NCBI RefSeq assembly: GCF_036241575.1
Contig: NZ_CP108455.1
Span: 558,001 to 622,000, forward strand
Reading direction: 5' to 3'
Length of the DNA: 64,000 bases
DNA from: Streptomyces sp. NBC_01267
GTDB taxonomy: Bacteria > Actinomycetota > Actinomycetes > Streptomycetales > Streptomycetaceae
Positions 524 to 32,335 of this stretch are shown in pieces; position 1 is the first letter of the stretch; each line of letters starts with the position of its first letter. The position numbers and the translations under genes were made by a program. The notes under the pieces are model-generated. The model saw nothing but the letters and a program-made list of their open reading frames with translations. It was not told the DNA's origin and made no database searches.

Positions 524-1816
524 TCAGCCGGTGGGCGGTTCCGAGCCCACCAGCCACATGGAGAAGAACTGCGAGCCACCGCCGTAGGCGTGCCCGAGCG
601 CCTTGCGGGCACCGTCCACCTGGTGCTCCCCGGCCTGTCCGCGCACCTGCAGAGCCGCCTCGGCGAACCTGATCATGCCGGAGGCGCCGATGGGGTTGGT
701 GGAGAGAACACCCCCCGAGGGGTTCACCGGAAGGTCTCCGTCGAGTTCGGTGACGCCGGACTCGGTGAGTTTCCAGCCCTCGCCCTCGGCGGCGAATCCC
801 AGGTTCTCCAGCCACATCGGCTCGTACCAGGAGAACGGCACGTACATCTCGACGGCGTCGATCTCCCGGCGCGGGTCGGTGATACCGGCCTGCCGGTACA
901 CATCGGCCGCGCAGTCCTTGCCCGCCTGCGGTGACACGAAGTCCTTGCCCGCGAACAGCGTCGGCTCGCTGCGCATGGCACCGCCGTGCACCCAGGCGGG
1001 CGGCTGCGGTGAACGGGCCGCGCCCGCACGGTCGGTGAGGACCATCGCGCAGGCGCCGTCCGACGAGGGGCAGGTCTCGGAGTACCGGATCGGGTCCCAG
1101 AGCATCGGCGACGCCTGGACCTTCTCCAGGGTGATGTCCTTCTCGTGGAGATGCGCGTAGGGGTTCTTCAGCGCGTTGCGGCGGTCCTTGTACGCGACGA
1201 GCGAGCCCACGGTGTCGGGGGCTCCGGCCCGGCGCATGTACGCCCGCACGTGCGGGGCGAAGAATCCGCCCGCACCGGCGAGCAGGGGCTGCTGGAAGGG
1301 AACGGGCAGGGAGAGCCCCCACATGGCGTTGGACTCGGACTGCTTCTCGAAGGCGAGGGTGAGAACGGTCCGGTGCACCCGGGCCGCGACCAGGTTGGAC
1401 GCGACGAGCGCGGTGGATCCGCCCACCGAGCCCGCCGTGTGCACCCGCATCATCGGCTTGCCGACGGCGCCCAGCGCGTCGGCGAGGTAGAGCTCGGGCA
1501 TCATCACGCCCTCGAAGAAGTCCGGCGCCTTGCCGATGACGACCGCGTCGATGTCCGACCACGTCAACTGGGCGTCGTCGAGCGCCCGTCGGGCGGCCTC
1601 GCGGACCAGCCCGGCGATGGACACGTCGTGCCGGGCCGCGACATGGTGGGTCTGGCCGATACCGACGACCGCGACGGGTTCCTTGTGCGCCGCGCTCCGG
1701 GACCCGGCCGCGCCCTGCGGACCCGCTGCACCCCGCGGACCCGCTGCACCTTGCCGACTCACTGCGCCTTGCGGACTCGCTGCACCTTGCGGACTCACTG
1801 CGCCTTGTGGACTCAC
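524..1816 (-). CDS. SCP2-type thiolase (Ltp3-like)
   Basis: The 430-residue product is a thiolase-fold enzyme of the non-specific lipid-transfer (SCP2-thiolase) group, close in motifs and length to Ltp3 of mycobacterial cholesterol catabolism. Visible blocks are KAPDFFEGVMMPELYLAD, HTAGSVGGST, the WDPIRYSETCPSSDGACA region, YVPFSWYEPMWLENLGFA and VNPSGGVLS with GHAYGGGSQ near the C-terminus. It presumably acts on beta-keto or beta-hydroxy acyl-CoA together with its neighbours. Start: GTG at 1816, overlapping the TGA of the upstream thiolase (GTGA), so translation is probably coupled. The first 36 residues are an odd Ser/Gly-Pro-Gln-Gly-Ala repeat absent from the family; the conserved domain begins near residue 42. 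An internal GTG could be the true start. Confidence 0.85.
   Translation of the reverse strand: MSPQGAVSPQGAASPQGAVSRQGAAGPRGAAGPQGAAGSRSAAHKEPVAVVGIGQTHHVAARHDVSIAGLVREAARRALDDAQLTWSDIDAVVIGKAPDFFEGVMMPELYLADALGAVGKPMMRVHTAGSVGGSTALVASNLVAARVHRTVLTLAFEKQSESNAMWGLSLPVPFQQPLLAGAGGFFAPHVRAYMRRAGAPDTVGSLVAYKDRRNALKNPYAHLHEKDITLEKVQASPMLWDPIRYSETCPSSDGACAMVLTDRAGAARSPQPPAWVHGGAMRSEPTLFAGKDFVSPQAGKDCAADVYRQAGITDPRREIDAVEMYVPFSWYEPMWLENLGFAAEGEGWKLTESGVTELDGDLPVNPSGGVLSTNPIGASGMIRFAEAALQVRGQAGEHQVDGARKALGHAYGGGSQFFSMWLVGSEPPTG
1709..1816 (-). repeat. 18-bp tandem repeat covering the start of the Ltp3-like gene
   Basis: Six head-to-tail 18-base units run from 1816 down to 1709. Each encodes a hexapeptide of the type V/A-S/G-P-Q/R-G-A, giving a collagen-like leader. 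Units 1, 2 and 4 begin with GTG, and the unit before each later GTG ends with AAGG four bases upstream, so the array repeats a start codon with a weak Shine-Dalgarno. Loss or gain of units would keep the frame. Confidence 0.85.
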
Positions 1817-2859
1817 TGGGCCTCTCCTTCGAGGACGGCGACCAGGTTCTGTTGCAGACAGGGGCCGGACGTGGCGTGGGCCAGGGCGCGGTCGGACTCG
1901 CCCCGGTGGATCCGGGCCGCTGCCTCGCCGAGCCGGATGAGCCCGGCCGCCATGACGGGGTTGGCGGCGAGCGCGCCGCCCGACGGGTTGACGCGGACGT
2001 CGTCGCCGAGGTCCAGCGCCTTGCGCAGCACGACTTCCTGGGAGGAGAACGGGGCGTGCAGTTCGGCGGTGTCCACCGGGCGTTCGAAGGCCCCGGCGCG
2101 CTCGGCGGCGAGCCGGGCGGACGGCGAGTCGGTGAGGTCGCGCACGCCCAGGCTGTGCGCCTCGATGCGGTGGTCCATCCCGCGGATCCAGGCGGGCCGT
2201 CCGCACAGCTCACGGGCCCGGTCCCCCGCGGCGAGGACGACGGCCGCCGCGCCGTCCCCGACGGGCGGGCAGTCGCCGGTGCGCAGCGGCTGTACGACAT
2301 AGCCGCCCTGCGGCCGGGCGCCGCGCAGTTGGGCATGCGGGTTGTCCGCGGCGGCGCCCCGGCTGCGGGCCGCGATCTCGGCGAGCGCCGGTTCCCCGGT
2401 GTCCCCCGCGTCGATCAGTGCCTGTGCCTGGAGCGCGGCGAGCGCCACCGAGTCGGGCCAGAGCGGCGCGACGTAGTACGGGTCGAGCTGCCGGGTCAGT
2501 ACGTCCCTGACCACGCCGGGCGAGGACTTGCCGTACGAGTAGACGAGCGCGGTGTCCGCCTCGCCGGTGAGCAGTTTGACCCAGGCCTCGTACAGCGCCC
2601 AGGCCCCGTCCATCTCCACATGGGACTCCGAGATGGGCGGCCAGGCACCGACCCCGTCGAGCGTCATGGTGAAGGAGAAGGCCCGTCCGGCGAGGTAGTC
2701 GCTCGACCCGGAGCAGGTGAAGTCGATGTCGCTCGCCTTCAGCCCGGTCTGCGCGAGGACGCCGTGCAGGACGGGCATCACCATCTCGACCTCGGAGAGG
2801 TCGTCGGTGCTCCGCCGGTGGTCGGTCTGCGCGAAGGCGACGATCGCGACCTCTCGCAT
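1813..2859 (-). CDS. SCP2-type thiolase (Ltp4-like)
   Basis: This 348-residue thiolase-superfamily protein begins MREVAIVAFAQTDHRR and carries the family blocks SGSSDYLAGRAF, a PVGDGAAAVVLA acyl-CoA thiolase segment near residue 200, RVNPSGGALAANPVMA near residue 300 and a closing SGPCLQQN segment. It resembles Ltp4 of mycobacteria, which sits between a DUF35 gene and ltp3 exactly as here. The ATG at 2859 overlaps the TGA of the DUF35 gene (TGATG), and its own stop overlaps the next thiolase start, so the three genes form a tightly coupled unit. Substrate is not readable from sequence; a side-chain beta-oxidation intermediate is inferred from context. Confidence 0.85.
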   Translation of the reverse strand: MREVAIVAFAQTDHRRSTDDLSEVEMVMPVLHGVLAQTGLKASDIDFTCSGSSDYLAGRAFSFTMTLDGVGAWPPISESHVEMDGAWALYEAWVKLLTGEADTALVYSYGKSSPGVVRDVLTRQLDPYYVAPLWPDSVALAALQAQALIDAGDTGEPALAEIAARSRGAAADNPHAQLRGARPQGGYVVQPLRTGDCPPVGDGAAAVVLAAGDRARELCGRPAWIRGMDHRIEAHSLGVRDLTDSPSARLAAERAGAFERPVDTAELHAPFSSQEVVLRKALDLGDDVRVNPSGGALAANPVMAAGLIRLGEAAARIHRGESDRALAHATSGPCLQQNLVAVLEGEAQ

Positions 2860-3815
2860 CAGATCAGCTCCTTGTAGGTGTCGTAGTCGGCGTCGGGCTC
2901 GCCGGTGGGCCGGTAGTGGTCGGGGAAGCGCCCGCCCTCGGTCCACACCGGTTCGACGCGCAGCCCCATCCGCACCTGGTCGTACGGGATGCCGCCGATG
3001 CGGCCGTGCAGCGGGAGGCCGGCTCCGTCCAGCGCGATGTGCCCGTAGACGTAGGGCACTTCGATGTCGAGACCGCGGGCCTTGATGTTGACGATGCAGT
3101 ACGTCGTGAGGGTGCCCGCGGGGCCGACCTCGACCTGCTCGTCCGTCGCGACTCCGCAGGTGGGGCAGGCGCCGCGCGGAGGTACGTACACCTTGCGGCA
3201 GGACGGGCAGCGCTCGCCGACGGTCTTGCGTCCGGCGAGGGCGTTGATGTAGTCGCTCTGGGCGCGGCCGGGGCTGTAGACGTAGTCGAGGCGAGCCTGC
3301 GCGATGATGCCGGTGACCGTGTCCTCGAACTCGCCGGTGTGCGGGGTCGCGGCGCCGGGCTCGCCCTCGTACGGCTCGAAGCAGGCGATGTCCGTGATGG
3401 CGCCGGTGCGTTCACCGGCCCAGCGGATGCGGACCCGCTGCCCGGTGCGGACGGCGTCGGGGCCCGTCGCGTCGAGGACGTGGAGCAGCGCGGTGTCGGC
3501 TCCGTCGAGTTTCACCAGCACCCAGGCGAACGGGGTGGCCAGCGGCTGGTCGCGCCGCGGGTCCGGATTCCAGGCCCAGGTGGTGACCGTCCCGGTCGGG
3601 GCCACCTCGACGAGGTCGCGTATCTCGTCGGCGGTGACCGGGTCGTACTCGACCGGGGGTACCAGGACCTTGCCGTCGCTGGTCCGCACCCCCAGGACGG
3701 TGCGCTCGCGCAGTCCGGTCAGGAAGGCGCTCTGCACGGGCCCGAGGGAGCGGGTGAAGGGGAACTCGACGACGAGGGGGGCGCGGAGCACCTCCGGTGA
3801 GGGAGCGGCTGTCAT
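2859..3815 (-). CDS. DUF35 OB-fold zinc-ribbon protein (Rv3521-like)
   Basis: This 318-residue protein has two OB-like halves. The C-terminal half shows the DUF35 signature: a zinc ribbon CPSCRKVYVPPRGACPTCG near residue 210, then an OB fold (GTLTTYCIVNI...VYGHIALDG). The N-terminal half looks like a second, ribbon-less OB domain. DUF35 proteins are obligate partners of SCP2-type thiolases or aldolases (for example Ltp2 with the DUF35 part of ChsH2). Its position directly ahead of two thiolases, with a TGATG overlap, fits that role. The ATG at 3815 has GGAG nine bases upstream; a longer in-frame extension has no coding character. Length is close to mycobacterial Rv3521. Confidence 0.85.
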   Translation of the reverse strand: MTAAPSPEVLRAPLVVEFPFTRSLGPVQSAFLTGLRERTVLGVRTSDGKVLVPPVEYDPVTADEIRDLVEVAPTGTVTTWAWNPDPRRDQPLATPFAWVLVKLDGADTALLHVLDATGPDAVRTGQRVRIRWAGERTGAITDIACFEPYEGEPGAATPHTGEFEDTVTGIIAQARLDYVYSPGRAQSDYINALAGRKTVGERCPSCRKVYVPPRGACPTCGVATDEQVEVGPAGTLTTYCIVNIKARGLDIEVPYVYGHIALDGAGLPLHGRIGGIPYDQVRMGLRVEPVWTEGGRFPDHYRPTGEPDADYDTYKELI

Positions 3816-3912
3816 GGGTGGGCTCCAATTTCTCCGCGGCGGGCGGGGGTAGCTCCGGCGGCGCCGGAGGGGAGGGCGGGGCATGAGGAAGGGGGGCGAG
3901 GACGTCCCGGGG

Positions 3913-4713
3913 TCAGGCCCGGCGGTAGACCGGCGGGCGCTTCTCGGCGAAGGCCCGGGAGCCCTCCTTGGCGTCGGCCGTGTCGAACACCGGCCATCCA
4001 CGGGCCAGTTCGGCCTTCAGCCCCTCGGTCTCGGTCAGCTCGGCGGTCTCGTACACCGACGCCTTGACGGCCTCGACGGCGAGCGGCCCGCAGTCGTTGA
4101 TCTGTCCGGCGATCTCCAGGGCCTTCTCCAGTGCGGTGCCGTCGGGGACGACATGCCCGATGAGTCCGACGGCGGCGGCTTCGGCGGCGGTGTACGGGCG
4201 CCCGGTGAGCAGCATTTCCAGTGCGTGGGTACGGGGGATCTGGCGCTGGAGCCGGACGGTCGAACCGCCGATCGGGAACAGCCCCCGCTTGACCTCGAAG
4301 AGGCCGAAGGTGGCGCTCTCGCCACCGACCCGGATGTCGGTGCCCTGAAGGATTTCCGTGCCGCCCGCGACGCAGTACCCCTCGACCGCGGCGATCACCG
4401 GTTTCCGCGGGCGGTGGTGGCGGAGCATCGCCTTCCAGTGCAGATCGGGGTCGGCCTTCAACCGGTCCCGGTACTGGTCGCCCTCCATTCCGCGGCCCGC
4501 GAGGGCCTTGAGGTCCATGCCCGCGCAGAACGCGCCGCCCGCTCCGGTGAGTACCACCGAGCGGACCGTGTCGTCCTCGTCGGCCTCCAGCCAGCCGTCG
4601 TACAGGCCGACCAGCATCGGCAGCGAGAGCGCGTTCTTCGCCTCGGGCCTGTTCAGAGTGAGCACAAGTGTGGCGCCTTCACGCCGCACGGTGAGGTGTT
4701 CGGTACCACCCAT
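3913..4713 (-). CDS. Enoyl-CoA hydratase, crotonase family (EchA19-like)
   Basis: The 266-residue protein is a complete crotonase-fold enzyme. The first oxyanion-hole segment is GAGGAFCAGMDLKAL near residue 65, and the second is AVEGYCVAGGTEI near residue 115. Both catalytic glutamates expected for hydratases are present: GGTE and, about 20 residues later, FGLFEVKRG. It should hydrate trans-2-enoyl-CoA in beta-oxidation. It is the first gene of the operon with DUF35 and the thiolases (97-bp gap) and diverges from the FadD19-like gene, the same arrangement as echA19/fadD19 in Mycobacterium. Start ATG at 4713. A KstR-type box lies 24 bp upstream. Confidence 0.88.
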   Translation of the reverse strand: MGGTEHLTVRREGATLVLTLNRPEAKNALSLPMLVGLYDGWLEADEDDTVRSVVLTGAGGAFCAGMDLKALAGRGMEGDQYRDRLKADPDLHWKAMLRHHRPRKPVIAAVEGYCVAGGTEILQGTDIRVGGESATFGLFEVKRGLFPIGGSTVRLQRQIPRTHALEMLLTGRPYTAAEAAAVGLIGHVVPDGTALEKALEIAGQINDCGPLAVEAVKASVYETAELTETEGLKAELARGWPVFDTADAKEGSRAFAEKRPPVYRRA

Positions 4714-4736
4714 GACCGTCCTCCCGTCTCAAGACG

Positions 4737-4750
4737 TAGAACAGGTTGCA
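4737..4750. promoter_or_regulatory. KstR-type operator in the echA/fadD19 divergent promoter
   Basis: TAGAACAGGTTGCA is an exact match to the published KstR consensus TnnAACnnGTTnnA, the TetR-family repressor of cholesterol catabolism in mycobacteria. It lies between the divergent echA-like and fadD19-like genes, nearer the former. No kstR gene is in the window, so the cognate repressor is inferred. Confidence 0.6.
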
Positions 4751-4777
4751 GGAGGTGGGGTTCCAGTTCAATAGTTT

Positions 4778-4794
4778 TCTGACACTCAGTCAGA
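4778..4794. promoter_or_regulatory. Inverted repeat TCTGA-N7-TCAGA, copy 1
   Basis: TCTGACACTCAGTCAGA lies midway between the two divergent genes. The flanks also match the copy at 14218 (TTTT on the left, TT on the right). Size and symmetry fit a TetR-family operator distinct from the KstR-type box 28 bp away. Confidence 0.55.
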
Positions 4795-4878
4795 TTTCTT
4801 CGCGGGGCCTCTTCCCACTTTCCGTGCGCGGCGCTGTAATGACCGGCGGGTCACTGGACGCCGGCGTCAGGAGAAGTG

Positions 4879-6501
4879 GTGGAGTACAACCTTGCCGACC
4901 TGTTCGAGTCCGTCGTCGACGCGGTCCCGGACCGCGAGGCACTCGTCTTCATCGACCACCCCGGCACGGGGGCGGAGCGCAGACTCACCTATGCCGAACT
5001 GGACACCGCGGCCAACCGCATCGCGCACCATCTGATCGACAGCGGCATCGGCCCCGGCGAGCATCTGGGGCTCCACCTCTACAACGGGGTGGAGTACCTG
5101 CAGACGGTGCTCGGCTGCCTCAAGGCGCGCATCGTGCCGGTCAACGTCAACTACCGTTACGTGGAAGACGAGTTGGTCTACCTCTACCGCGACGCCGATC
5201 TCGCGGCGCTGGTCTTCGACGCGGAGTTCACCGAGCGGGTGGCGGCTGCCCTGCCGCAGACGGAGAAGCTGCGCCATCTCGTACGGGTCGGGGCGCCTCC
5301 CGAGGGGGCGCCGGAGCCCGGGATCGCGCCGGTGGCGTATGCGGAGGCCGAGGCGGCGGGAGCGCCCGGACGCGGCTTCGGACCCCGGTCCGCGGACGAC
5401 CAGTTCATCATCTACACCGGGGGCACCACGGGGATGCCCAAGGGGGTGATGTGGCGTGCGGAGGACCTGTTCTTCTCCGGGCTCGGCGGCGGCGCCCCGA
5501 CGGGTGAGCCGGTCGGCACGCCGGAGGAGCTGGCCGAGCGGGTGGCCGCGGGCGGCGACGGGATCACCTTCTTCCCCACGCCCCCGCTGATGCACGGCAC
5601 CTCCACCCTCACCGCCTTCATCGCCCTGAACTTCGGTCAGCGCATCGTCATCCACCGGAAGTTCGTGCCCGACGAGGTGCTCCGTACGATCGAGAAGGAG
5701 AAGGTCACCAGCGTGTCGCTGGTCGGCGACGCGATGCTGCGCCCGCTGGTCGACGCCCTCCGGGGGCCGCTCGAAGGCACGGACTGCTCGGCGCTGTTCA
5801 GCGTCTCCAGCTCGGGCGCGATCATGTCGGACACGGTGCGCGCGCAGTTCCAGGAACTCGTGCCGAACGCCATGCTGCTCAACAACTTCGGTTCGTCGGA
5901 GTCCGGGTTCAACGGCACCGCGACACCCGACTCGGGCCCGGACAAGGGGTTCAGGCTGCGGATGAACTCCCGTACGGCGGTGGTCGATCCGGCCACGTAC
6001 CGCCGGGTCGCCGTCGGGGAGGTGGGCCGGATCGCCCAGCGCGGGCATGTCCCGCTCGGCTACTACAACGACCCGAAGAAGACCGCGGAGACCTTCTTCG
6101 AGGCCGACGGGGAGCGCTGGGTGCTGCTCGGTGACATGGCAACCGTCGACGAGGAGGGCATCGTCACCGTCCTGGGGCGTGGCTCGCAGTGCATCAACAC
6201 CGGCGGCGAGAAGGTGTATCCGGAAGAGGTCGAGCAGGCGCTCAAGTCCCACCCCGATGTGTACGACGCCCTGGTGGCCGGGGTGCCGGACGCCAAGTGG
6301 GGCAACCATGTGGCGGCCGTGGTGCAGGTGCGCTCCGGGGCGGACGAGCCCAGCCTCGACGAGATCCAGGCCCACTGCCGCACCAGGATCGCCGGATACA
6401 AGGTCCCCCGCCAGCTGGTGATCGCGCCGGAGATCCAGCGGTCGCCGAGCGGCAAGGCCGACTACCGCTGGGCGCGCGGGGTGGCGGTGGCGGCCGAATA
6501 G
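4879..6501 (+). CDS. Acyl-CoA synthetase, FadD19-like
   Basis: A 540-residue ANL-superfamily acid:CoA ligase. The AMP-binding loop is YTGGTTGMPKG near residue 178, followed by FGSSESGFNG and the hinge/C-terminal segments GRGSQCINTGGEKVYPEEVE and SPSGKADYRW with the catalytic lysine. The opening NLADLFESVVDAVPDREAL strongly resembles mycobacterial FadD19, which activates the steroid side chain; the substrate here is inferred. Two adjacent GTG codons (4876, 4879) can start it; AGGAG at 4869-4873 fits 4879 better. It faces the enoyl-CoA hydratase operon across a promoter with two operators. Confidence 0.85.
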   Translation: MEYNLADLFESVVDAVPDREALVFIDHPGTGAERRLTYAELDTAANRIAHHLIDSGIGPGEHLGLHLYNGVEYLQTVLGCLKARIVPVNVNYRYVEDELVYLYRDADLAALVFDAEFTERVAAALPQTEKLRHLVRVGAPPEGAPEPGIAPVAYAEAEAAGAPGRGFGPRSADDQFIIYTGGTTGMPKGVMWRAEDLFFSGLGGGAPTGEPVGTPEELAERVAAGGDGITFFPTPPLMHGTSTLTAFIALNFGQRIVIHRKFVPDEVLRTIEKEKVTSVSLVGDAMLRPLVDALRGPLEGTDCSALFSVSSSGAIMSDTVRAQFQELVPNAMLLNNFGSSESGFNGTATPDSGPDKGFRLRMNSRTAVVDPATYRRVAVGEVGRIAQRGHVPLGYYNDPKKTAETFFEADGERWVLLGDMATVDEEGIVTVLGRGSQCINTGGEKVYPEEVEQALKSHPDVYDALVAGVPDAKWGNHVAAVVQVRSGADEPSLDEIQAHCRTRIAGYKVPRQLVIAPEIQRSPSGKADYRWARGVAVAAE

Positions 6502-11508: not shown

Positions 11509-13068
11509 TCACAGCGCGCGCTGGTGGCCCTCCCAGTACGGGTCGCGCAGACGCCTCTTGTAGAGCTTGCCGTTGGGGTCGCGCGGCATCGCCTCGGTGA
11601 AGTCGACGCTCTTCGGGCGTTTGTATCCGGCGAGCAGGGTCTCGCAGTGCGTGAGGATCTCGGCGGCGAGGGCCGCTCCGGGCTCGTGTCCCTCGGCGGG
11701 TTCGACGACGGCCTTCACCTCCTCGCCCCAGTCGGCGTGCGGTATGCCGAAGGCCGCGGCGTCGGCGACCGCCGGGTGGGTGAGCAGCGCGGACTCGATC
11801 TCGGCCGGGTAGATGTTGACGCCACCGGAGATGATCATGTCGATCTTGCGGTCGCGGAGGAAGAGATAGCCGTCCTCGTCGAGGATGCCGAGGTCGCCGA
11901 CGGTGAAGAAGTCACCGATGCGGTTCTTCTTCGTCTTGGATTCGTCCTTGTGGTAGCTGAACCCGCCGGTGGACATCTTCATGTACACGGTGCCGAGTTC
12001 GCCGGGCGGCAGCCGGTTCCCGTCGTCGTCGAAGACGGCTAGTTCACTGATGGGCCAGGCCTTGCCGACCGTGCCGGGCTTCTTCAGCCAGTCGTCGGCG
12101 GTGGCGAAGGCGCCGCCGCCCTCGCTGGCCGCGTAGTACTCCTCGACGCACCGCCCCCACCAGTCGATCATCGCCCGCTTGACGTGGTCGGGGCACGGCG
12201 CCGCCCCGTGGATGGCGTGGCGCATCGCCGTCACGTCGTAGCGCTGCTTGACCTCGTCGGGCAGCGCCAGGAGGCGGTGGAACTGGGTCGGCACCATGTG
12301 GGTATGCGTGCACCGGTACGCGTCCATCTGGCGCAGCATGTCCTCCGGGGTCCATTTGTCCATCAGGACCAGCGGGTGGCCGATGTGCAGGGCCGCTCCC
12401 GCGAACTGGAGTACGGCGGTGTGGTAGAGCGGCGAGCAGACCAGATGGACGTTGCCGTCGAAGGGCCGGATGCCGAAGATCCCGAGGAATCCACCGAGGT
12501 AGGTCTCCTCGGGCAGCTTGCCGGGCAGCGGGCGGCGGATGCCGCGGGGCCGCCCCGTGGTGCCCGAGGTGTAGTTCATGACCCAGCCGAGGGTGCGGTC
12601 CTCGGGTACGGATTCGGGCTGCCCGCCCGGGAGTTGGGCGTAGGGGCGGAATCCGGGGATGTCACCGACGGCGTAGCGGTGGTCGGCGGGCAGTCCGGCT
12701 TCCTCCGCGGCGGCCACGGCGGCCTCCGCGAACCGCTCGTGGGCGATGAGGACCTTCGCCCCCGAGTCGGAGACGATCCAGGCGATTTCCGGGCCGACGA
12801 AGTGGTGGTTGACGGGGACCAGGTAGAAACCGGCCTGGGAGGCGGCGAGGTACGCGGTGAGGAACTCGACGCCGTTCGGCAGTACGACCGCGAAGGCGTC
12901 ACCGCGTTCGAGACCGGCGGCGCGCAGCCCGTGCACCAGCTGGTTGGCGGACGCGTGCAGTTGTCCGGCGCTCCACTGCGCGCCGTCGGGCGCGGTCAGT
13001 ACCGTACGGCCGGGGTCGGCTGCGGCCTGGGCCCAGAAGCCGTTGGGGTTCTCGTTCTGCGACGCCAT
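11509..13068 (-). CDS. Acyl-CoA synthetase, FadD4-like
   Basis: A 519-residue ANL ligase with NYTSGTTGRPRGIRR (near residue 180), SPLYHTAVLQF, YYAASEGGGAFA in place of the usual YGxTE motif, TVGDLG, DRKIDMIISGGVNIYPAEIE and DPNGKLYKRRLRDPYWEGH. The last block is typical of the mycobacterial FadD4-like group. It should activate a carboxylic acid; the substrate is unknown. The ATG at 13068 shares bases with the stop of the preceding flavoprotein gene (TGATG), so the two are co-translated and their products probably act in one pathway. Both would answer to the palindrome at 14218. Confidence 0.85.
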   Translation of the reverse strand: MASQNENPNGFWAQAAADPGRTVLTAPDGAQWSAGQLHASANQLVHGLRAAGLERGDAFAVVLPNGVEFLTAYLAASQAGFYLVPVNHHFVGPEIAWIVSDSGAKVLIAHERFAEAAVAAAEEAGLPADHRYAVGDIPGFRPYAQLPGGQPESVPEDRTLGWVMNYTSGTTGRPRGIRRPLPGKLPEETYLGGFLGIFGIRPFDGNVHLVCSPLYHTAVLQFAGAALHIGHPLVLMDKWTPEDMLRQMDAYRCTHTHMVPTQFHRLLALPDEVKQRYDVTAMRHAIHGAAPCPDHVKRAMIDWWGRCVEEYYAASEGGGAFATADDWLKKPGTVGKAWPISELAVFDDDGNRLPPGELGTVYMKMSTGGFSYHKDESKTKKNRIGDFFTVGDLGILDEDGYLFLRDRKIDMIISGGVNIYPAEIESALLTHPAVADAAAFGIPHADWGEEVKAVVEPAEGHEPGAALAAEILTHCETLLAGYKRPKSVDFTEAMPRDPNGKLYKRRLRDPYWEGHQRAL

Positions 13069-14174
13069 CACTGACTCCGTCCGGCGATGCGGTTGATGCG
13101 GTCGACGGCCCGCTCGAAGCCGCGCGTCAGATCGTCGAAGACCGCCTGCACACTGCGCTCGGAGTTCATCCGGCCGACGATCTGGCCGACGGGGGTGCCG
13201 AGCAGCGGGTCGGTCTCGTACTTCTGGATTCGGGAGATGGCGTCGGCGACGAGCAGCCCCTGGAGCGGCATGGGCAGGGTGCCGGGGCCGCTGGGGTCGT
13301 CCCAGGCGTCGGTCCATTCGGTACGCAGCTGGCGGGCGGGCTTGCCGGTGAGGGCGCGGGAGCGCACGGTGTCGCCGGAGCCCGCGTCGAGGAGTTTCCG
13401 GGTGAGGGCGCGGGAGTGCATCTCGGCCTCGGTGGTGGTGAGCCAGAGCGAGCCGAGCCACACCCCCTGGGCGCCCAGCGCGATGCCCGCCGCGATCTGT
13501 TCCCCGCTGCCGATGCCTCCGGCTGCCAGGACGGGCAACGGGGACACGGCGTCGACCACTTCGGGTGTGAGCACCATGGAAGCGATGTCGCCGGTGTGGC
13601 CGCCCGCCTCGTACCCCTGCGCGACGACGACGTCGATGCCCGCTTCGGCGTGCCGCCGGGCGTGCTTGGCGCTGCCTGCCAGGGCTGCGACCAGGACGTC
13701 GTGCCGGTGGGCGCGCTCGATGACGTCGGCGGGCGGGGAGCCGAGGGCGTTGGCGAGGAGTCTGACGGGGTAGTCGAACGCGACGTCGAGCTGGTTGCGG
13801 GCGACCTGCTCCATCCAGCCGGTGATGCGCCAGCCGGAGACGTCGCCCTCGGCCAGTTCGGGGACGCCGTACTTGGCGAGGGTGTCCCGGACGAACTGGC
13901 GGTGTCCCTCCGGGATCATCGCCTCGACCTCGGCCTCGGTCACCCCCTCCACCTTCTTGGCCGGCATCACGACGTCGAGGCCGTACGGCAGCCCGTCGGT
14001 GTGCTCCTGCATCCAGTCGAGATCACGCGCCAGATCGTCGGGGGCGGTGTAGCGGACCGCTCCGAGTACGCCGAATCCGCCGGCCCTGGTGATGGCGGCG
14101 GCCACGGCGGGGAAGGGCGTGAAGCCGAAGATGGCGTGCTCGATCCCCAGTTTCTTACTCAGCTCCGTCTCCAT
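13068..14174 (-). CDS. Nitronate monooxygenase-family flavoprotein
   Basis: This 368-residue protein has the NMO/2-nitropropane-dioxygenase TIM barrel that binds FMN: FTPFPAVAAAITRAGGFGVLGA at the N-terminus, AQGYEAGGHTGD near residue 190, and VLAAGGIGSGEQIAAGIALGAQGVWLGS near 215. Members include true nitronate monooxygenases, FMN quinone reductases and IpdC, an enoyl-CoA-type reductase of mycobacterial steroid-ring degradation. Coupling to an acyl-CoA synthetase favours a CoA-thioester role over nitronate, but this is inference. The start is ATG at 14174, 43 bp from a palindrome shared with the fadD19/echA promoter. Confidence 0.82.
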   Translation of the reverse strand: METELSKKLGIEHAIFGFTPFPAVAAAITRAGGFGVLGAVRYTAPDDLARDLDWMQEHTDGLPYGLDVVMPAKKVEGVTEAEVEAMIPEGHRQFVRDTLAKYGVPELAEGDVSGWRITGWMEQVARNQLDVAFDYPVRLLANALGSPPADVIERAHRHDVLVAALAGSAKHARRHAEAGIDVVVAQGYEAGGHTGDIASMVLTPEVVDAVSPLPVLAAGGIGSGEQIAAGIALGAQGVWLGSLWLTTTEAEMHSRALTRKLLDAGSGDTVRSRALTGKPARQLRTEWTDAWDDPSGPGTLPMPLQGLLVADAISRIQKYETDPLLGTPVGQIVGRMNSERSVQAVFDDLTRGFERAVDRINRIAGRSQ

Positions 14175-14217: not shown

Positions 14218-14234
14218 TCTGATGCTGTGTCAGA
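14218..14234. promoter_or_regulatory. Inverted repeat TCTGA-N7-TCAGA, copy 2
   Basis: TCTGATGCTGTGTCAGA has the same arms, spacing and flanks (TTTT before, TT after) as the element at 4778-4794. The seven-base spacers differ, which argues for conserved half-sites and not for a recent duplication. It is placed to control the flavoprotein/FadD4-like operon. Confidence 0.55.
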
Positions 14235-18726: not shown

Positions 18727-20964
18727 TCAGTGGCCCTGCGCGCTCCGCTGCTGCCGCCGCGCGGCGACCTGCCGGTAGAGCTCGGCGGCCTCGCTGCCGC
18801 GGCCGAGCTGTTCCAGGCAGTGCGCCTCGTCGTTGCGGCTGGCCAGTGCGTCGGGGTGGTCGACGCCGAGCACCCGCTCACGGTCCGCGGCGACCTGCCG
18901 GTAGACCAGGAGGGCATCCGCCCAGCGGCCCAGCCAGCCCAGCCCCACCGCGATCTCGCGGCGGCTGACGAGCGTGTCGGGGTGATCGGCGCCGAGCACC
19001 TGCGCACGGAGCGCGCCGACCTCGCGCGCCTCGGCGAGCGCCTCCTCCCAGCGGGTGAGGCGGCCGAGGTTCACCCCCAGGCCGTGGCGGGCGCGCAGCG
19101 TCTCCGGGTCGGCGGGGCCGTGGACCCGGGTGCGATCGGCGACCAGGGTGCGGAAGAGTTCGAGCGCTTCGGCGCTGCGGCCCAGCCTGCCGAGGCTGAT
19201 CCCGACCTCGTAGCGGGCCGCGAGGGTGTCGGGGTGGTCGGCGCCGAGCGCCTGCGCACGGGCCGCCGCCACTTCCTGGTAGGTCGCCAGCGCCTCCGGC
19301 CACCGCCCCAACTGGCCCAGCGTGTAGGCCACTTCGTACCGGGTGACCAACGTGTCCGGGTGACCCGCACCGAGCAACCGGGCCCGCACCGCGGCGACGT
19401 CGCACGCCATCCGGTAGGAGTCCTCCAGCCGTCCGAGCCTGCTGAGGTTGAACGCGAGGTTGTGGCGACAGCGCAGCGTGTCCGGGTGATCGGGGCCGAC
19501 GGTGCGCTGCCGTGCGGCGAGCACCGACGCGTACACCTGGTGCGCCTCGAAGTGCCTGCCCAACTGCCCGAGGACGTACGCCATCTCCTGGCGGGCGGCG
19601 AGGGTCTCCGGGTGGTCGGCGCCCAGGGCCCGTTCACGGCCGTCGGCGACCCGGGTGAACTCGCGCAGCGCGTCCGCCGCCCGCCCGGTGCGGCTGAGCG
19701 TGAACCCGACCTCGTAGTGGCTGGCCAGGGTGTCCGGGTGGCCGGGGCCCAGTACATGTTCCCGCTCGGCCGCCACCGCGCGGTGCACCTCACCCGCCTC
19801 CGCCCAGCGGCCCAGCCTGCTCAGGCTGAGGCCCGCGTTGTGGCGGCCGGTGAGCGTGGCCACGAGCCCCGGGTCCGGGGTGGGGCGCTGCCCGGTGGAC
19901 GACAGCGGGACCGGGCCGGTACCGCGCGGCGCCGCCGTGGTCCATTCGCCGGTCAGCGCCGTGGCCCGGTCGGTCGGGGTGGAGGTCACCGTCCAGGTGC
20001 CGGTCGCCTTGTGGCCGGTGGTCATCCCGCGGGTCCAGGACGGCAGCGCCGGGGCGGCGGACGGCAGTTGCTCCGGGGGCCGCGGCGCGGGGACCGCGGG
20101 CAGCTCCGGGGCGGGAGCACCGGCGGCGAGACGCCGGCCGAGTTCCCTGGCGTCCCTGGGCCGGTCGTCCGGGCTCTTGGCGAGCAGTTCCAGGACGACC
20201 CGGTCGAAGAACGCGGGCAGTTCGGCCCGGTGGCTGCGCGGCGGCTCGGGCACGGTGTCCCGGTGGCTCACCAGGATCGCCCAGGCGTCGTCGAGGTCGA
20301 AGGGCGGCTGCCCGGTGGCGATCTCGTAGAGCACGCAGCCCAGCGAGTAGAGATCGCTGCGGTGGTCGACCTCGCCCCCGCCGCCGATCTGTTCCGGCGA
20401 CATGTAGTGCGGGGTTCCCATGGCGATGCCGGTTCCGGTGAGCCGGGAGGTGAAGCCGATGTCGTGGCCCAGCCGGGCGATCCCGAAGTCGCAGATCTTC
20501 ACGGTGCCGTCGGCGAGCCGCATGATGTTGGCGGGCTTCAGGTCCCGGTGGACGATGCCCTGTTCATGGGTGTACGCGAGGGCCGAGGCCACCTGACGCG
20601 CGATGTCGACGACCACGGGCACCGGCAGCTGATGCTGTTCGTCGGCCTCGAGGAGCTGGCTGAGGTTACGGCCGTCCAGCAGTTCCATGACGAGGTAGAG
20701 GACACCCTCGTACTCCCCGAAGTCATGGACGACGGTGACACCGCGGTGCTGGAGTGCGGCTGCCACCCGGGCCTCCCGCCGGAAGCGTTCGCGCAGCACC
20801 CTGGTGAAGGACTGGTCGTGCTGGGGTCCCAGCGGCTTGAGGCACTTGACCGCGACGAGGCGGCCCAGTGACTCGTCACGTGCCCGCCACACCTCGCCCA
20901 TGCCCCCGCGCCCGATCAGATCGAGCAGCCGGTACCGGCCGTGGATCAGCCTGGTGTCCGCCAT
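18727..20964 (-). CDS. Soluble Ser/Thr protein kinase with nine TPR units
   Basis: This 745-residue protein has an N-terminal Hanks-type kinase: glycine loop GRGGMGEVW at 18-26, Lys40, HRDLKPAN with Asp141, DFG at 159-161, then GTPHYMSPEQ. A Pro/Thr-rich linker (about 285-370) leads to nine 42-residue repeats of the pattern LGxxHPDTLxxRxExxxxLGxLGR (kinesin-light-chain/TPR_12 style). There is no transmembrane or PASTA segment, so it is probably cytosolic and recruited through the TPR arm. ATG at 20964. The start lies inside the end of the DUF2236 gene (19-bp overlap), so the two are translated as an operon. Confidence 0.88.
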   Translation of the reverse strand: MADTRLIHGRYRLLDLIGRGGMGEVWRARDESLGRLVAVKCLKPLGPQHDQSFTRVLRERFRREARVAAALQHRGVTVVHDFGEYEGVLYLVMELLDGRNLSQLLEADEQHQLPVPVVVDIARQVASALAYTHEQGIVHRDLKPANIMRLADGTVKICDFGIARLGHDIGFTSRLTGTGIAMGTPHYMSPEQIGGGGEVDHRSDLYSLGCVLYEIATGQPPFDLDDAWAILVSHRDTVPEPPRSHRAELPAFFDRVVLELLAKSPDDRPRDARELGRRLAAGAPAPELPAVPAPRPPEQLPSAAPALPSWTRGMTTGHKATGTWTVTSTPTDRATALTGEWTTAAPRGTGPVPLSSTGQRPTPDPGLVATLTGRHNAGLSLSRLGRWAEAGEVHRAVAAEREHVLGPGHPDTLASHYEVGFTLSRTGRAADALREFTRVADGRERALGADHPETLAARQEMAYVLGQLGRHFEAHQVYASVLAARQRTVGPDHPDTLRCRHNLAFNLSRLGRLEDSYRMACDVAAVRARLLGAGHPDTLVTRYEVAYTLGQLGRWPEALATYQEVAAARAQALGADHPDTLAARYEVGISLGRLGRSAEALELFRTLVADRTRVHGPADPETLRARHGLGVNLGRLTRWEEALAEAREVGALRAQVLGADHPDTLVSRREIAVGLGWLGRWADALLVYRQVAADRERVLGVDHPDALASRNDEAHCLEQLGRGSEAAELYRQVAARRQQRSAQGH

Positions 20965-21893
20965 CTCGTGCTGTCGCCCCCGTCGCGTAGCTGCACCCTC
21001 TCCGGCCCGTCCAGTATGGCGTCCGGTGTCCGGAGTTTGTACGGTGCCGGGCGGCTGCCGGGGCCCAGGCGTGCCATGGCTTTCAGAATATGGCCTGGTG
21101 GCAGCTGCCAGCGAAGCCGGGCAGGGATGCAGCGCAGGGCGTTGCCCGCGACGGTGAGCCGACGGGTGACGGTCTCCTCGGCGGGCGCCGGTCTGCCGTA
21201 GAGCTCGTGGGCGTACGGAGGCAGGGAGGCGTAAGCGAGCGCGGCCACCCGTCGCCAGAGCACTTCGCGCGCCGGCGTGAGCAGGGCGGGGACGGGCGGC
21301 CTGCGCAGGAAGTCGTCGACCTCGCGTGATTCCGCGGTGGCGGCGAGCTCGGGGCGCACGGCCGCGAAGTACCCCTCGAGTGCGGCCCGGTCGGCGGGCA
21401 CCGCGGCCGGGTCGAGACCGACCAGCCGGGCGCTCTCCCGGTTCTCGTCGATGTAGCGGTCGGCCCGGTCGTCGCCGGTCAGCGCCCCCGAACGGCGCAG
21501 GACGCTCACGTACGAGTCGACCTCCGCGCAGTGCACCCAGAGCAGCAGTGCGGGCTCGTCGACCCCGTACCGCTCCCCGGTGTCCGGATCGGTGGCCCCG
21601 AGGTGGCGGTGGATCCTCCGGACCCGGGCCCCCGCCTGCTCGGCGGCCTCCGTCGTCCCGTAGGTGACCGTCCCGACGAAACCCGCGGTACGCATCAGCC
21701 GGCCCCAGGCGTCCCGGCGGAAGTCCGAGTTCTGTATGACGCCGCGCACCGCCCGGGGGTGCAGCGCCTGGAGGTAGAGGGCGCGGATCCCGGCCACCCA
21801 CATGATCGGGTCGGAGTGCAGCTGCCAGGTCACCGAGGCGGGGCCGAAGAGGCCGGGATCCGCTCCGTACGTCGTCCGGGGTGCATCGCTCAT
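20946..21893 (-). CDS. DUF2236 oxygenase-like protein (MpaB/latex-clearing family)
   Basis: The 315-residue protein fits DUF2236, the haem-binding domain shared by the fungal oxygenase MpaB and bacterial rubber oxygenase Lcp. It shows the opening GPASVTWQLHSDPIMWVAGIRALYLQALHPRAV, a central LLLWVHCAEVDSYV helix, and a C-terminal ALRCIPARLRWQLPPG segment. The histidines in HPRAV and WVHC are the obvious haem-ligand candidates. The substrate is unknown. Start ATG at 21893. It is the first gene of a two-gene unit with the TPR kinase, which suggests regulation or partnership, though the link is not established. Confidence 0.8.
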   Translation of the reverse strand: MSDAPRTTYGADPGLFGPASVTWQLHSDPIMWVAGIRALYLQALHPRAVRGVIQNSDFRRDAWGRLMRTAGFVGTVTYGTTEAAEQAGARVRRIHRHLGATDPDTGERYGVDEPALLLWVHCAEVDSYVSVLRRSGALTGDDRADRYIDENRESARLVGLDPAAVPADRAALEGYFAAVRPELAATAESREVDDFLRRPPVPALLTPAREVLWRRVAALAYASLPPYAHELYGRPAPAEETVTRRLTVAGNALRCIPARLRWQLPPGHILKAMARLGPGSRPAPYKLRTPDAILDGPERVQLRDGGDSTRWRTPG

Positions 21894-29498: not shown

Positions 29499-30689
29499 CT
29501 ACCGCCGCACGCGGGGCATCCCCAGCCCGATCCAGGAGATGATTTCCCGCTGGATCTCGTTGTTGCCGCCGCCGAAGGTGAAGATGACGGCCGAGCGGTA
29601 GCCGCGCTCCAGTTCACCGTGGAGCACCGCGCCCGTGGATCCCTCCTTGAGAGATCCTGCCGCGCCGACGACCTCCATGAGCCAGGCGTAGGCGTCCCGG
29701 CGGGCCTCCGATCCGTACACCTTGACCGCCGAGGCGTCCTGCGGGGTGAGCGTCCCGTTCTGCACGGCGTTGACCATCTGCCAGTTCAGGAGCTTCATCG
29801 CGTCGAGCCTGGTGTGGGTCCTCGCGAGGCGCCCGCGCACCCAGCCCAGGTCGATGACCCGGCGCCCGTCGGCGAGCTCGGTGTCGGCCGCCCAGCACTG
29901 CACGTTGTGCAGGGCGCGGATGGCCATGGTGCCGTGGGCGGCCAGGGTGACGCGCTCGTGGTTGAGCTGGTTGGTGATCAGCCGCCAGCCCTTGTTCTCC
30001 TCGCCGACGCGGCGGGAGGCGGGGACCGTGATGTTCTCGTAGTAGCTGGCGGTGGTGTCGTGCGAGGCGAGGGTGTTGATGAGGGTGCAGGAGTACCCGG
30101 GGTCGTCGGTCGGCACCAGCAGCATCGTGATGCCCTTGTGCGCGGGGGCGGCCGGGTCCGTACGGACAGCGAGCCAGACCCAGTCGGCGGTGTCGCCGTT
30201 GGTGGTCCAGATCTTCTGCCCGTTCACCGTGTAGTGCCCGGTGGTCACGTCGCCCTCGCGTACGGCCCGGGTCTTGAGCGCGGCGAGATCGGTGCCCGCG
30301 TCGGGCTCGCTGTAGCCGATCGCGAAGTCGATCTCGCCCTTGAGGATCTTCGGCAGGAAGTACGCCTTCTGCTCGTCGGTGCCGAACCGCATGAGGGTCG
30401 GACCCACGGTGTTGAGCGCCATGAGCGGCAGCGGTACGCCCGCCTGCGCGGCCTCGTCGAAGAAGATGAACTGCTCCATCGGGGAGAGTCCGCGACCGCC
30501 GAACTCCTCGGGCCAGCCGACGCCCAGCCAGCCGTCGGTGCCCAGTCTGCGCACCGTCTCGCGGTAGAAGCGTTTCTGGGCTCCCGCGTCCGCGTAGCGC
30601 GCGTAGGCGTTGTCCGGCACCAGTTCGGCGAAGTAGGTGCGCAGTTCGGCGCGCAGCCGCTGCTGCTCGGGGGTGTATTCGAGGTGCAC
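29499..30689 (-). CDS. Acyl-CoA dehydrogenase, FadE26/ChsE4-alpha-like
   Basis: The 396-residue protein is a full-length acyl-CoA dehydrogenase with IGYSEPDAGTDLAALKT (FAD/substrate loop, near residue 120), GQKIWTTNGDTADWVWLAVRT, NQLNHERVTLA, and the C-terminal FGGGNNEIQREIISWIGLG. The sequence strongly recalls FadE26, which pairs with FadE27 as the ChsE4-ChsE5 heterotetramer for cholesterol side-chain oxidation. No FadE27-like partner is adjacent. No glutamate is evident at the usual catalytic position in the C-terminal EGST region, which reads KEGSTGAV. GTG at 30689 with GAGGAGG upstream. A KstR-type box lies 40 bp ahead of the start. Confidence 0.88.
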   Translation of the reverse strand: MHLEYTPEQQRLRAELRTYFAELVPDNAYARYADAGAQKRFYRETVRRLGTDGWLGVGWPEEFGGRGLSPMEQFIFFDEAAQAGVPLPLMALNTVGPTLMRFGTDEQKAYFLPKILKGEIDFAIGYSEPDAGTDLAALKTRAVREGDVTTGHYTVNGQKIWTTNGDTADWVWLAVRTDPAAPAHKGITMLLVPTDDPGYSCTLINTLASHDTTASYYENITVPASRRVGEENKGWRLITNQLNHERVTLAAHGTMAIRALHNVQCWAADTELADGRRVIDLGWVRGRLARTHTRLDAMKLLNWQMVNAVQNGTLTPQDASAVKVYGSEARRDAYAWLMEVVGAAGSLKEGSTGAVLHGELERGYRSAVIFTFGGGNNEIQREIISWIGLGMPRVRR

Positions 30690-30728: not shown

Positions 30729-30742
30729 TAGAACGCGTTCCA
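30729..30742. promoter_or_regulatory. KstR-type operator before the FadE26-like gene
   Basis: TAGAACGCGTTCCA matches TnnAACnnGTTnnA at every fixed position, with a 10-bp perfect core GAACGCGTTC. A second inverted repeat, TTCCA-N6-TGGAA (30738-30753), overlaps its right half. It is 40 bp upstream of the dehydrogenase and could also influence the divergent aldo/keto reductase. Confidence 0.65.
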
Positions 30743-31858: not shown

Positions 31859-32335
31859 TCAGCCCACGACGGTGGGAGCGAGGGAGCCGAGCTTGTCGAC
31901 GGCCTGGTAGTACGTCCAGGCCAGCCCGGTGCAAGCGGCCCCGCTCGCACCCGAGTACCCGGCGCACACCCGCTTGAGGTCTGCGTACAGCGCGCTGTCG
32001 ATACGCGCCTTGTTGGCGGCGAAGGTGCCCGCGGCCTTGTAGTTGCGGTAGCCGAAGTCGTGGCGCGCGCAGGCGGTCTTGAACGGGAACCCGAAGGGGT
32101 TGTCGGGCGAGCTGGAGCAGTAGTCGGTGGACCAGTCGAAGCCGTACGCGCTCCAGGCGCCCTGGTTCTGGTGGGCGGCGTTCCAGGAGTTGTAACTAGC
32201 CGCGCTGGTCTGGGTCCAGCTGCTGAGTACCTGGCCCTTGTCCGCCGGGGCGGCGACCGCGGGAGAGGCGGCCAGTACGGCGGCGCAGAGGGAAAGGGCG
32301 AGAGCGGCGAGCCGCCCTGCGGATCGGGTACGCAT
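31859..32335 (-). CDS. Secreted phospholipase A2
   Basis: The 158-residue protein has a Sec signal (residues 1-29, cleavage after AVAA) and a small PLA2 domain like that of S. violaceoruber. It shows DYCSSSPDNPFGFPF, then CARHDFGYRNYK with the catalytic His92-Asp93 pair, and four cysteines for two disulfides. Asp71 is placed to bind Ca2+. It hydrolyses the sn-2 ester of extracellular phospholipids. GGAGG lies eight bases before the ATG at 32335. The 170 bp up to the next gene holds its promoter; no operator stands out. Confidence 0.92.
   Translation of the reverse strand: MRTRSAGRLAALALSLCAAVLAASPAVAAPADKGQVLSSWTQTSAASYNSWNAAHQNQGAWSAYGFDWSTDYCSSSPDNPFGFPFKTACARHDFGYRNYKAAGTFAANKARIDSALYADLKRVCAGYSGASGAACTGLAWTYYQAVDKLGSLAPTVVG

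Follow-up and report, generated by a model that had tools for sequence, protein, structure and literature searches.

In a 64,000-nucleotide stretch of the Streptomyces sp. NBC_01267 genome (the window; C1:558001-622000 of a three-contig, 8.07 Mb genome), five genes at positions 524-6501 encode Ltp3-, Ltp4-, DUF35-, EchA19- and FadD19-like proteins. We propose that these genes are probably the form taken in Streptomyces by an actinobacterial module for the activation and shortening of C24-branched sterol side chains under a KstR-type repressor. Judged from its sequence and that of its relatives, the sterol side-chain unit is real, conserved and of a known kind, and its fusion into one unit is common in Streptomyces. 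Its interest would lie in the frequent lack of a ring pathway in genomes that carry it, and in a candidate second operator in its promoter.

The five-gene unit and its mycobacterial relatives

The unit consists of the following genes.

524..1816, minus strand: Ltp3-like aldolase subunit with an SCP2-thiolase fold (723 bits with PRK08313, whose cut-off is 514)
1813..2859, minus strand: Ltp4-like partner subunit (PRK07937, 568 bits against 419)
2859..3815, minus strand: Rv3521-type DUF35 protein of 318 aa (PF01796 and PF12172; ChsH2-type zinc ribbon and OB fold)
3913..4713, minus strand: EchA19-like enoyl-CoA hydratase (PRK07799, 423 bits against 316)
4876..6501, plus strand: FadD19-like acyl-CoA ligase, divergent from echA (PRK07798, 747 bits against 543)

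An earlier note, written from the letters of the window, had described these genes in this order and likened them to two pieces of the mycobacterial cholesterol locus, the divergent fadD19/echA19 pair and Rv3521-ltp4-ltp3. Family matches confirmed the description for all five proteins, four of which passed PRK subfamily or equivalog cut-offs; the PRK models matched here are those that cover mycobacterial Ltp3, Ltp4 and FadD19. The best solved relative of the EchA19-like protein is EchA19 itself (6wyi, 267 bits), the FadD19-like ligase had no solved relative at E<=1e-40, and the DUF35 protein carries two DUF35 modules (two PF01796 matches at the locus). At seven loci outside Streptomyces, Ltp3 and Ltp4 proteins match those of the window at 67-71% and 53-61%, respectively.

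Three non-Streptomyces loci (L283-L285, family f3), which we call Mycobacterium-type from the gene order of M. tuberculosis, have the order ltp3-ltp4-DUF35, a box TAGAAC(AG/CT)GTTCTA, a P450 gene, echA19, a TnnAACnnGTTnnA box, fadD19 and a nitronate monooxygenase (NMO) gene; in L283, an Rv3520c-like gene follows the first box. The DUF35 protein matches its counterparts there at 45%, with kshA within about 6 kb, and the FadD19-like protein matches the ligase adjoining echA19 at 44-45% (51% in L288). In a back-search with stop-to-stop frames, 18 of 18 proteins from the Mycobacteriales-type loci L283-L286 (only three of them from L286) found this unit best among selected pieces of its own genome, which served as targets instead of the whole. 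These partial reciprocal matches, taken with the family matches, uphold the mycobacterial kinship. With the KstR-regulon segments of Mycobacterium and Rhodococcus, the unit shares the five genes, the fadD19/echA19 divergence, the DUF35-ltp4-ltp3 order and KstR-type boxes. It differs from L283-L285 in being contiguous with one box, whereas in those loci a P450 and other genes separate the two halves, both halves are boxed individually and kshA is nearby; moreover, a second palindrome in the Streptomyces promoter is absent from those three loci. A separate case is L288 (genome G417, from another class of the phylum), in which EchA, FadA5, NMO, FadD4, DUF35, Ltp4, Ltp3, two FadE and FadD19 are encoded within 16 kb; the locus has one strict box, and its genome is without KshA at E<=1e-50.

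Within Streptomyces, we compared named loci with 6 kb flanks, taking the best 80 of 469 relatives; all 80 were Streptomyces, and 78 of them supplied intergenic regions. The closest by its DUF35 protein was Streptomyces sp. A 4/2 (99%). The five-gene order was present in 75 of these 80 loci, and four others stop at a contig end; in L157 (Streptomyces violascens), where the unit lies well within the contig, Ltp4 is matched only in part (residues 2-117) and Ltp3 not at all. The fused five-gene unit is therefore a common Streptomyces arrangement and not peculiar to this strain.

The thiolase-fold chains lack the nucleophilic cysteine of SCP2-type thiolases: at the aligned position Ltp3 has Gly and Ltp4 has Glu, and we rejected a thiolase function for both on account of these replacements. 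At the HD-x-F place, Ltp3 has YVPF where SCP2-thiolase has HDCF, and in the alignment both the Gly and YVPF are kept in seven of seven non-Streptomyces Ltp3 relatives. Ltp4 has HAPF at the base place, with H, Y, A or Q in its relatives. The available passages on Ltp2 and CtSal give the motifs YDHF and YDCY, respectively, and a Gly replacing the thiolase Cys in CtSal, the same residue as in Ltp3. From these passages, the Tyr of YVPF would lie at the catalytic-base place, opposite YDHF of Ltp2 and YDCY of CtSal. Because the Gly and Tyr are kept in all seven Ltp3 relatives and the base place varies in Ltp4, we infer that Ltp3 is the catalytic chain, with Ltp4 and the DUF35 protein as its partners. 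The SCP2-thiolase fold with a DUF35 partner is common to the Ltp2-ChsH2(DUF35) and Sal-Shy aldolases; unlike these, the unit has two different thiolase-fold chains (Ltp3 and Ltp4), and its double-DUF35 protein stands alone, with no MaoC domain attached.

At the ltp4/ltp3 junction, the putative GTG start of ltp3 at 1816 overlaps the ltp4 stop (the gene caller chose 1762). An 18-bp tandem repeat of 6.3 copies (1710-1823) spans this junction and would add a PQGA-type tail to the N terminus of Ltp3. In Streptomyces sp. A 4/2, which is nearly identical to the window here, the gap at the junction measures 126 bp; over 76 measured loci the median gap is 0 and the next largest is 48.

KstR-type boxes, a second palindrome and a KstR-like regulator

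Two kinds of putative operator were found in the window.

4737..4750: KstR-type box TAGAACAGGTTGCA, fitting at all eight fixed bases, 23 bp upstream of the echA start
30729..30742: KstR-type candidate box TAGAACGCGTTCCA, 39 bp upstream of a FadE26-like gene
4779..4793: CTGAC-N5-GTCAG palindrome, conserved in intergenic regions, a candidate operator of another regulator
14219..14233: CTGATGCTGTGTCAG, a copy of this palindrome with one mismatch, 44 bp upstream of an NMO gene

The fit of the echA box to the KstR consensus, which the earlier note had pointed out, was borne out. The window has two matches to the pattern (4737 and 30729) against a shuffle mean of 0.05, and two were reached in 1 of 100 shuffles. 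A genome scan for the 14-mer pattern returned 31 sites, compared with 16 when the pattern was reversed, and an exact match by itself therefore proves little; since many sites also lie inside genes, we rejected reading every genome match as an operator. Lipid-catabolic genes follow the two sites in the window and those at C1:2077078 and C1:2093258. The motif follow-up covered TnnAACnnGTTnnA-type sites and left TTGAACnCGTTCAA-type sites out.

The evidence for the box is carried by conservation rather than by the exact match. With at most one mismatch, the 14-mer is found at the same place in 29 of the 30 best loci (of 137 DUF35 genomes), 12 of them exact, with G023 lacking it, and 76 of the 78 intergenic regions from named Streptomyces retain the core GAACAGGTTGCA. 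In two named loci (L154 and L155) the echA-fadD19 intergenic box reads TGCAACCTGTCTA, its right half-site short by one base, a natural test of the need for the site. Three M. tuberculosis sites are given as positive in electrophoretic mobility shift assays (EMSA) in the available part of PMC1995591: TAGAACGTGTTACA at Rv3515c/Rv3516 (fadD19/echA19), TAGAACCTGTTCTA at Rv3520c/Rv3521 and TAGAACGTGTTGCA at Rv0551c/Rv0552. The half-sites of the last are identical to those of the box at 4737-4750.

We then surveyed promoters (250 bp upstream, at most one mismatch) of eight sterol genes in seven genomes, this strain and six without a strong match to the ring hydroxylase KshA, using as controls 213 other genes from the same seven 60-80 kb stretches. 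The KstR box was present at 34 of 46 sterol promoters compared with 4 of 213 control genes, and the second palindrome at 30 of 46 compared with 1 of 213; because one intergenic stretch serves both FadA5 and CYP125, these numbers include some sites twice. The box is thus one of a wider set at boxed sterol genes. In 19 of 30 loci, a TnGAACnnGTTCnA box stands at FadE34. The two motifs part company at two genes: the kstR-like gene has the KstR box in 7/7 genomes and the palindrome in 0/7, and the Rv3520c-like gene has the palindrome in 7/7 and the box in 0/7.

By chance, 0.12 copies of CTGAC-N5-GTCAG are expected in the window, and one copy occurred in 11 of 100 shuffles. Its loose form, CTGA-N7-TCAG, is present in all 78 named intergenic regions. 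Including one-step variants, 26 palindrome matches were found in the surveyed stretches, 25 of them near a gene of the set (G129:38905 has no nearby gene start). At the seven non-Streptomyces loci, six have no palindrome and one has a single copy. Since the spacing between box and palindrome varies, we take them as two independent sites, and the palindrome points to a candidate further regulator acting on the same promoters. No gene for it could be singled out in the surveyed stretches, and a literature search aimed there was also blank.

A search for a kstR homologue recovered a KstR-family TetR gene at C1:2109230. Its product scores 145/137 bits to 3bjb/KstR (next best 41), and NF033703 was its only NCBIfam family at E<=1e-30; other TetR genes of the genome reach 131, 115 and then 43 bits with the KstR model. 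By these scores it is a family member and not a certified equivalog. The available part of Kendall 2007 mentions SCO2319 of S. coelicolor (32%) as possibly orthologous to KstR, with no synteny. With relatives of the expected kind, a KstR-family gene in the genome and a box conserved in related species, the three observations by which the earlier note had asked to be judged all fell on its side.

Companion genes and distribution across genomes

Three further genes of the window may belong to the same pathway.

11509..13074, minus strand: FadD4-like acyl-CoA ligase whose gene overlaps that of NMO (55% to the L288 ligase encoded immediately before DUF35-ltp4-ltp3)
13068..14174, minus strand: NMO-like flavoprotein (PF03060; 52-54% to the product of the gene that comes next after fadD19 in L283-L285)
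29499..30689, minus strand: FadE26-like acyl-CoA dehydrogenase (PF02771/02770/00441)

Among the named loci, FadD4 was found in 7/80 and NMO in 3/80 (all three of the latter loci stop within NMO), so their close linkage to the unit is not general; that NMO might serve as an ene-reductase for side-chain double bonds is speculation. The FadE26-like protein matches, at 47-50%, a FadE that adjoins a second, FadE27-sized FadE in L287 and L288, and its tentative label comes from this likeness.

Other predicted steps are encoded at C1:2.07-2.12 Mb: an operon of MaoC hydratase, alcohol dehydrogenase (ADH) and short-chain dehydrogenase (SDR) genes, Ltp1 (PRK08256, 630 bits against 436), a FadE34-like fused dehydrogenase, an Rv3520c-type F420 oxidoreductase (TIGR03559, 449 against 335), the KstR-like TetR, an aldehyde dehydrogenase accompanied by a small ferredoxin-like gene, FadA5 and CYP125. 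FadA5 scores 692 bits with the steroid-thiolase model NF005889 (cut-off 515) and 507 bits in a further match, and the P450 513 bits to CYP125 structures. The names Hsd4A (for the SDR, NF005862) and FadE34 are our reading of family and neighbourhood.

Ring genes also occur in the genome. Two KshA genes (C1:357764 and C1:479761; KshA_C 312 and 292 bits against a cut-off of 23), the nearer 78 kb from the unit, accompany HsaA (602 bits against 450) and HsaD (449 against 400), which pass, an HsaC-like protein below its cut-off (350 against 450) and KstD-like proteins; one KshA-like protein had no NCBIfam match at E<=1e-60. There are two separate steroid ring clusters, C1:350-370k (L033/L034) and C1:462-512k (L035-L037). 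The second, which may be of bile-acid type, encodes a DUF35-bearing protein of MaoC+DUF35 size and contains the two TetR genes that reach 131 and 115 bits with the KstR model. Within it, C1:501-512k resembles a ring C/D cluster from gene calls read by eye (two of its proteins, when scanned, had no NCBIfam match at E<=1e-60). The earlier note had remarked that no ring-degradation gene is in the window and doubted on that ground that the substrate was cholesterol. The remark is true of the window; the doubt drawn from it is not supported, and with KshA, HsaA and HsaD elsewhere in the genome we rejected the argument that no ring genes means no sterol. This strain can probably degrade the steroid nucleus as well.

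To place the unit in its genus, we used 199 same-genus genomes, drawn evenly, and a wider phylum sample of 396, with the DUF35 protein standing in for the whole unit in the 199 (for its other four genes, the check covered the named loci). DUF35 was present in 136 genomes, a count from which G003 (a 42% partial match) had been dropped from 137 and which retains fragmented or cut matches in G008, G030, G036, G058, G060, G114 and G144. CYP125 was present in 135; the two occurred together in 134, one alone in 3 and neither in 62. One DUF35 genome, G071, has no KstR-like gene. Counting as strong those KshA matches above 250 bits, 19 genomes carried KshA, 17 of them with DUF35; a further 17 of the 36 same-genus matches (78-101 bits) were dropped before counting, and 13 of these fall in the 117 genomes described next. 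An HsaC match (E<=1e-50) was found in 24 of 199 genomes, including 18 of the 19 with strong KshA.

Of the 134 genomes with DUF35 and CYP125, 117 were without strong KshA; in 104 of these, relaxing the threshold to E<=1e-20 still gave no KshA, and HsaC was unmatched at E<=1e-50 in 112. Ring degradation is therefore not the usual partner of the unit, and these 117 genomes apparently hold a side-chain-only pathway. All six surveyed genomes without strong KshA retained the MaoC-ADH-Hsd4A-like genes, the KstR-like gene, the aldehyde dehydrogenase-ferredoxin pair and FadA5/CYP125, with strict boxes at the MaoC operon and kstR in 6/6; FadE34 and Ltp1 lay within the examined 60 kb in 1/6. Outside the genus, the DUF35 protein of family f3 matches at 45-50% over nearly full length in 12 of 13 positives (the thirteenth is partial), and these 13 genomes are exactly the 13 KshA carriers outside the genus in the phylum sample. 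Beyond the genus and f3, 14 of 14 DUF35-positive genomes, several with partial matches, were without KshA at E<=1e-50.

Proposed substrate and regulator of the unit

The genes used for comparison favour C24-branched sterols over cholesterol itself, and the substrates would be plant sterols and perhaps ergosterol. FadD19 is needed for beta-sitosterol and not for cholesterol in M. smegmatis (available part of PMC6273163), and Ltp3-Ltp4 is described as the C24-branch aldol-lyase, acting after desaturation, carboxylation and hydration (available part of PMC6678751). Since FadD19 and Ltp3/Ltp4 are reported as enzymes of C24-branched sterols, we read the unit as one for branched-sterol activation and retro-aldol cleavage. 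In the proposed scheme, CYP125, together with alcohol and aldehyde dehydrogenases whose genes likewise lie in other parts of the genome, would turn the tail into a C26 acid, and FadD19 would form its CoA ester. A FadE26-like enzyme would desaturate the ester and EchA19 would hydrate the product, whereupon Ltp3-Ltp4 and the DUF35 protein would cleave off the branch by retro-aldol chemistry, not thiolysis, and Hsd4A-like and FadA5 proteins would complete the round of beta-oxidation. The KstR-family TetR is predicted to repress the set through TnnAACnnGTTnnA-type boxes, and a second regulator may act on the same promoters through CTGAC-N5-GTCAG. KstR is released from DNA by a sterol-CoA ester. 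The sequences themselves show the kinship, the gene order, the boxes, their conservation and the co-occurrence of genes; substrate, chemistry and repression are inferred from them.

Several results weigh against this scheme. The EchA19-like protein scores 371 bits with the EchA19 equivalog NF051848, below the curated cut-off of 400, and in M. smegmatis loss of echA19 only delays sitosterol use, for which the gene is not essential (available part of PMC6273163). None of the neighbours of the FadE26-like gene in the window was recognised as a FadE27 partner, and FadE34 was found in 67 of the 136 DUF35 genomes (one at 49%), an absence that is uncertain because only five candidates were scored per genome. 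On the regulatory side, the outer bases of the box are not conserved, so that only 44 of the 78 named intergenic regions retain the strict TnnAACnnGTTnnA, and the box of this strain's own kstR-like gene has one mismatch. The KstR-like TetR scores 194 bits with NF033703, below the equivalog cut-off of 280, and 52 of the 187 same-genus genomes that carry it are without the DUF35 marker. The regulator is therefore older or wider than the unit and must have other targets.

These last two results would also suit a reading in which the enzymes are correctly assigned and the box is bound by a regulator other than KstR, as would the right half-site GTTGC and the modest excess of genome matches (31 against 16). 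We consider this quite improbable, given that the kstR-like gene bears a strict box in 28 of 30 loci, like mycobacterial kstR, which is reported to be autoregulated, that an EMSA-positive mycobacterial site has the same half-sites, and that boxes mark the same orthologous promoters. As for the substrate, the earlier doubt about a sterol returns in another form because 117 of 134 genomes are without strong KshA: the module might degrade a non-steroid branched isoprenoid acid (phytol-type, a methyl-branched lipid or an own-cell polyterpenoid) and merely resemble sterol machinery. The near-absence of KshA and HsaC from these genomes and the 14 KshA-free genomes beyond the genus and f3 would fit such a substrate. 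Nevertheless, the P450 is nearest CYP125 and not the methyl-branched-lipid hydroxylase CYP124 (513 against 323 bits), a Streptomyces CYP125, CYP125A13 of S. peucetius, hydroxylates cholesterol (available part of PMC9728343), FadA5 passes the steroid-thiolase model, and 13 of 13 DUF35 genomes in f3 have KshA. On balance, a non-steroid substrate seems unlikely.

A third possibility is catabolism of bile acids or other cholate-type steroids with C5 side chains, as for the Sal-Shy aldolases. The genome does hold a candidate cholate-type cluster, the second one described above, with its MaoC+DUF35-size protein and KstD-, KshA- and FadE34-like genes. However, that cluster lies apart from the unit and encodes a DUF35 protein of its own, the relatives of the unit (FadD19, Ltp3 and Ltp4) are the reported C24-branch enzymes, and CYP125, which starts on alkyl tails, is present in 134 of 136 DUF35 genomes, which makes a bile-acid role highly improbable.

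Assuming a C24-branched sterol module, we tentatively extend the proposal to the genus, at a confidence somewhat short of calling it probable: most unit-bearing Streptomyces may run side-chain-only sterol catabolism under a conserved two-operator regulon, taking acetyl- and propionyl-CoA from C24-branched fungal and plant sterols and leaving the nucleus or a truncated acid, with ring pathways in a minority that includes this strain. If so, Streptomyces would shed steroid cores into soil while drawing polyketide precursors from fungal and plant sterol tails. With a ring-enzyme screen, Bergstrand 2016 reported that 55 of 57 Streptomyces genomes lacked a steroid pathway (available part of PMC4810484). 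Should a regulated side-chain pathway, mostly without the ring marker, be present in about two thirds of the genus, such screens could not see it. CYP125A13 resembles the present system in being a Streptomyces CYP125, and a CYP125 gene co-occurs here with the DUF35 marker; the available passages of PMC9728343 draw no connection to a KstR-like regulon or a FadD19/Ltp3/Ltp4 unit. In the open literature searched, we found no description of the Streptomyces unit, of its regulon without ring genes or of the second palindrome. The unit would offer a ready test of what sterols from fungi and plants are used for in Streptomyces. It might also supply propionyl-CoA for polyketides and be a natural producer of side-chain-cleaved steroid synthons, and the palindrome makes its putative regulator directly searchable.

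Elsewhere in the window, a protein with an MPAB/rubber-oxygenase catalytic domain is encoded at 20946-21833, adjoining a kinase-TPR gene, and a prokaryotic phospholipase A2 domain protein at 31859-32335.

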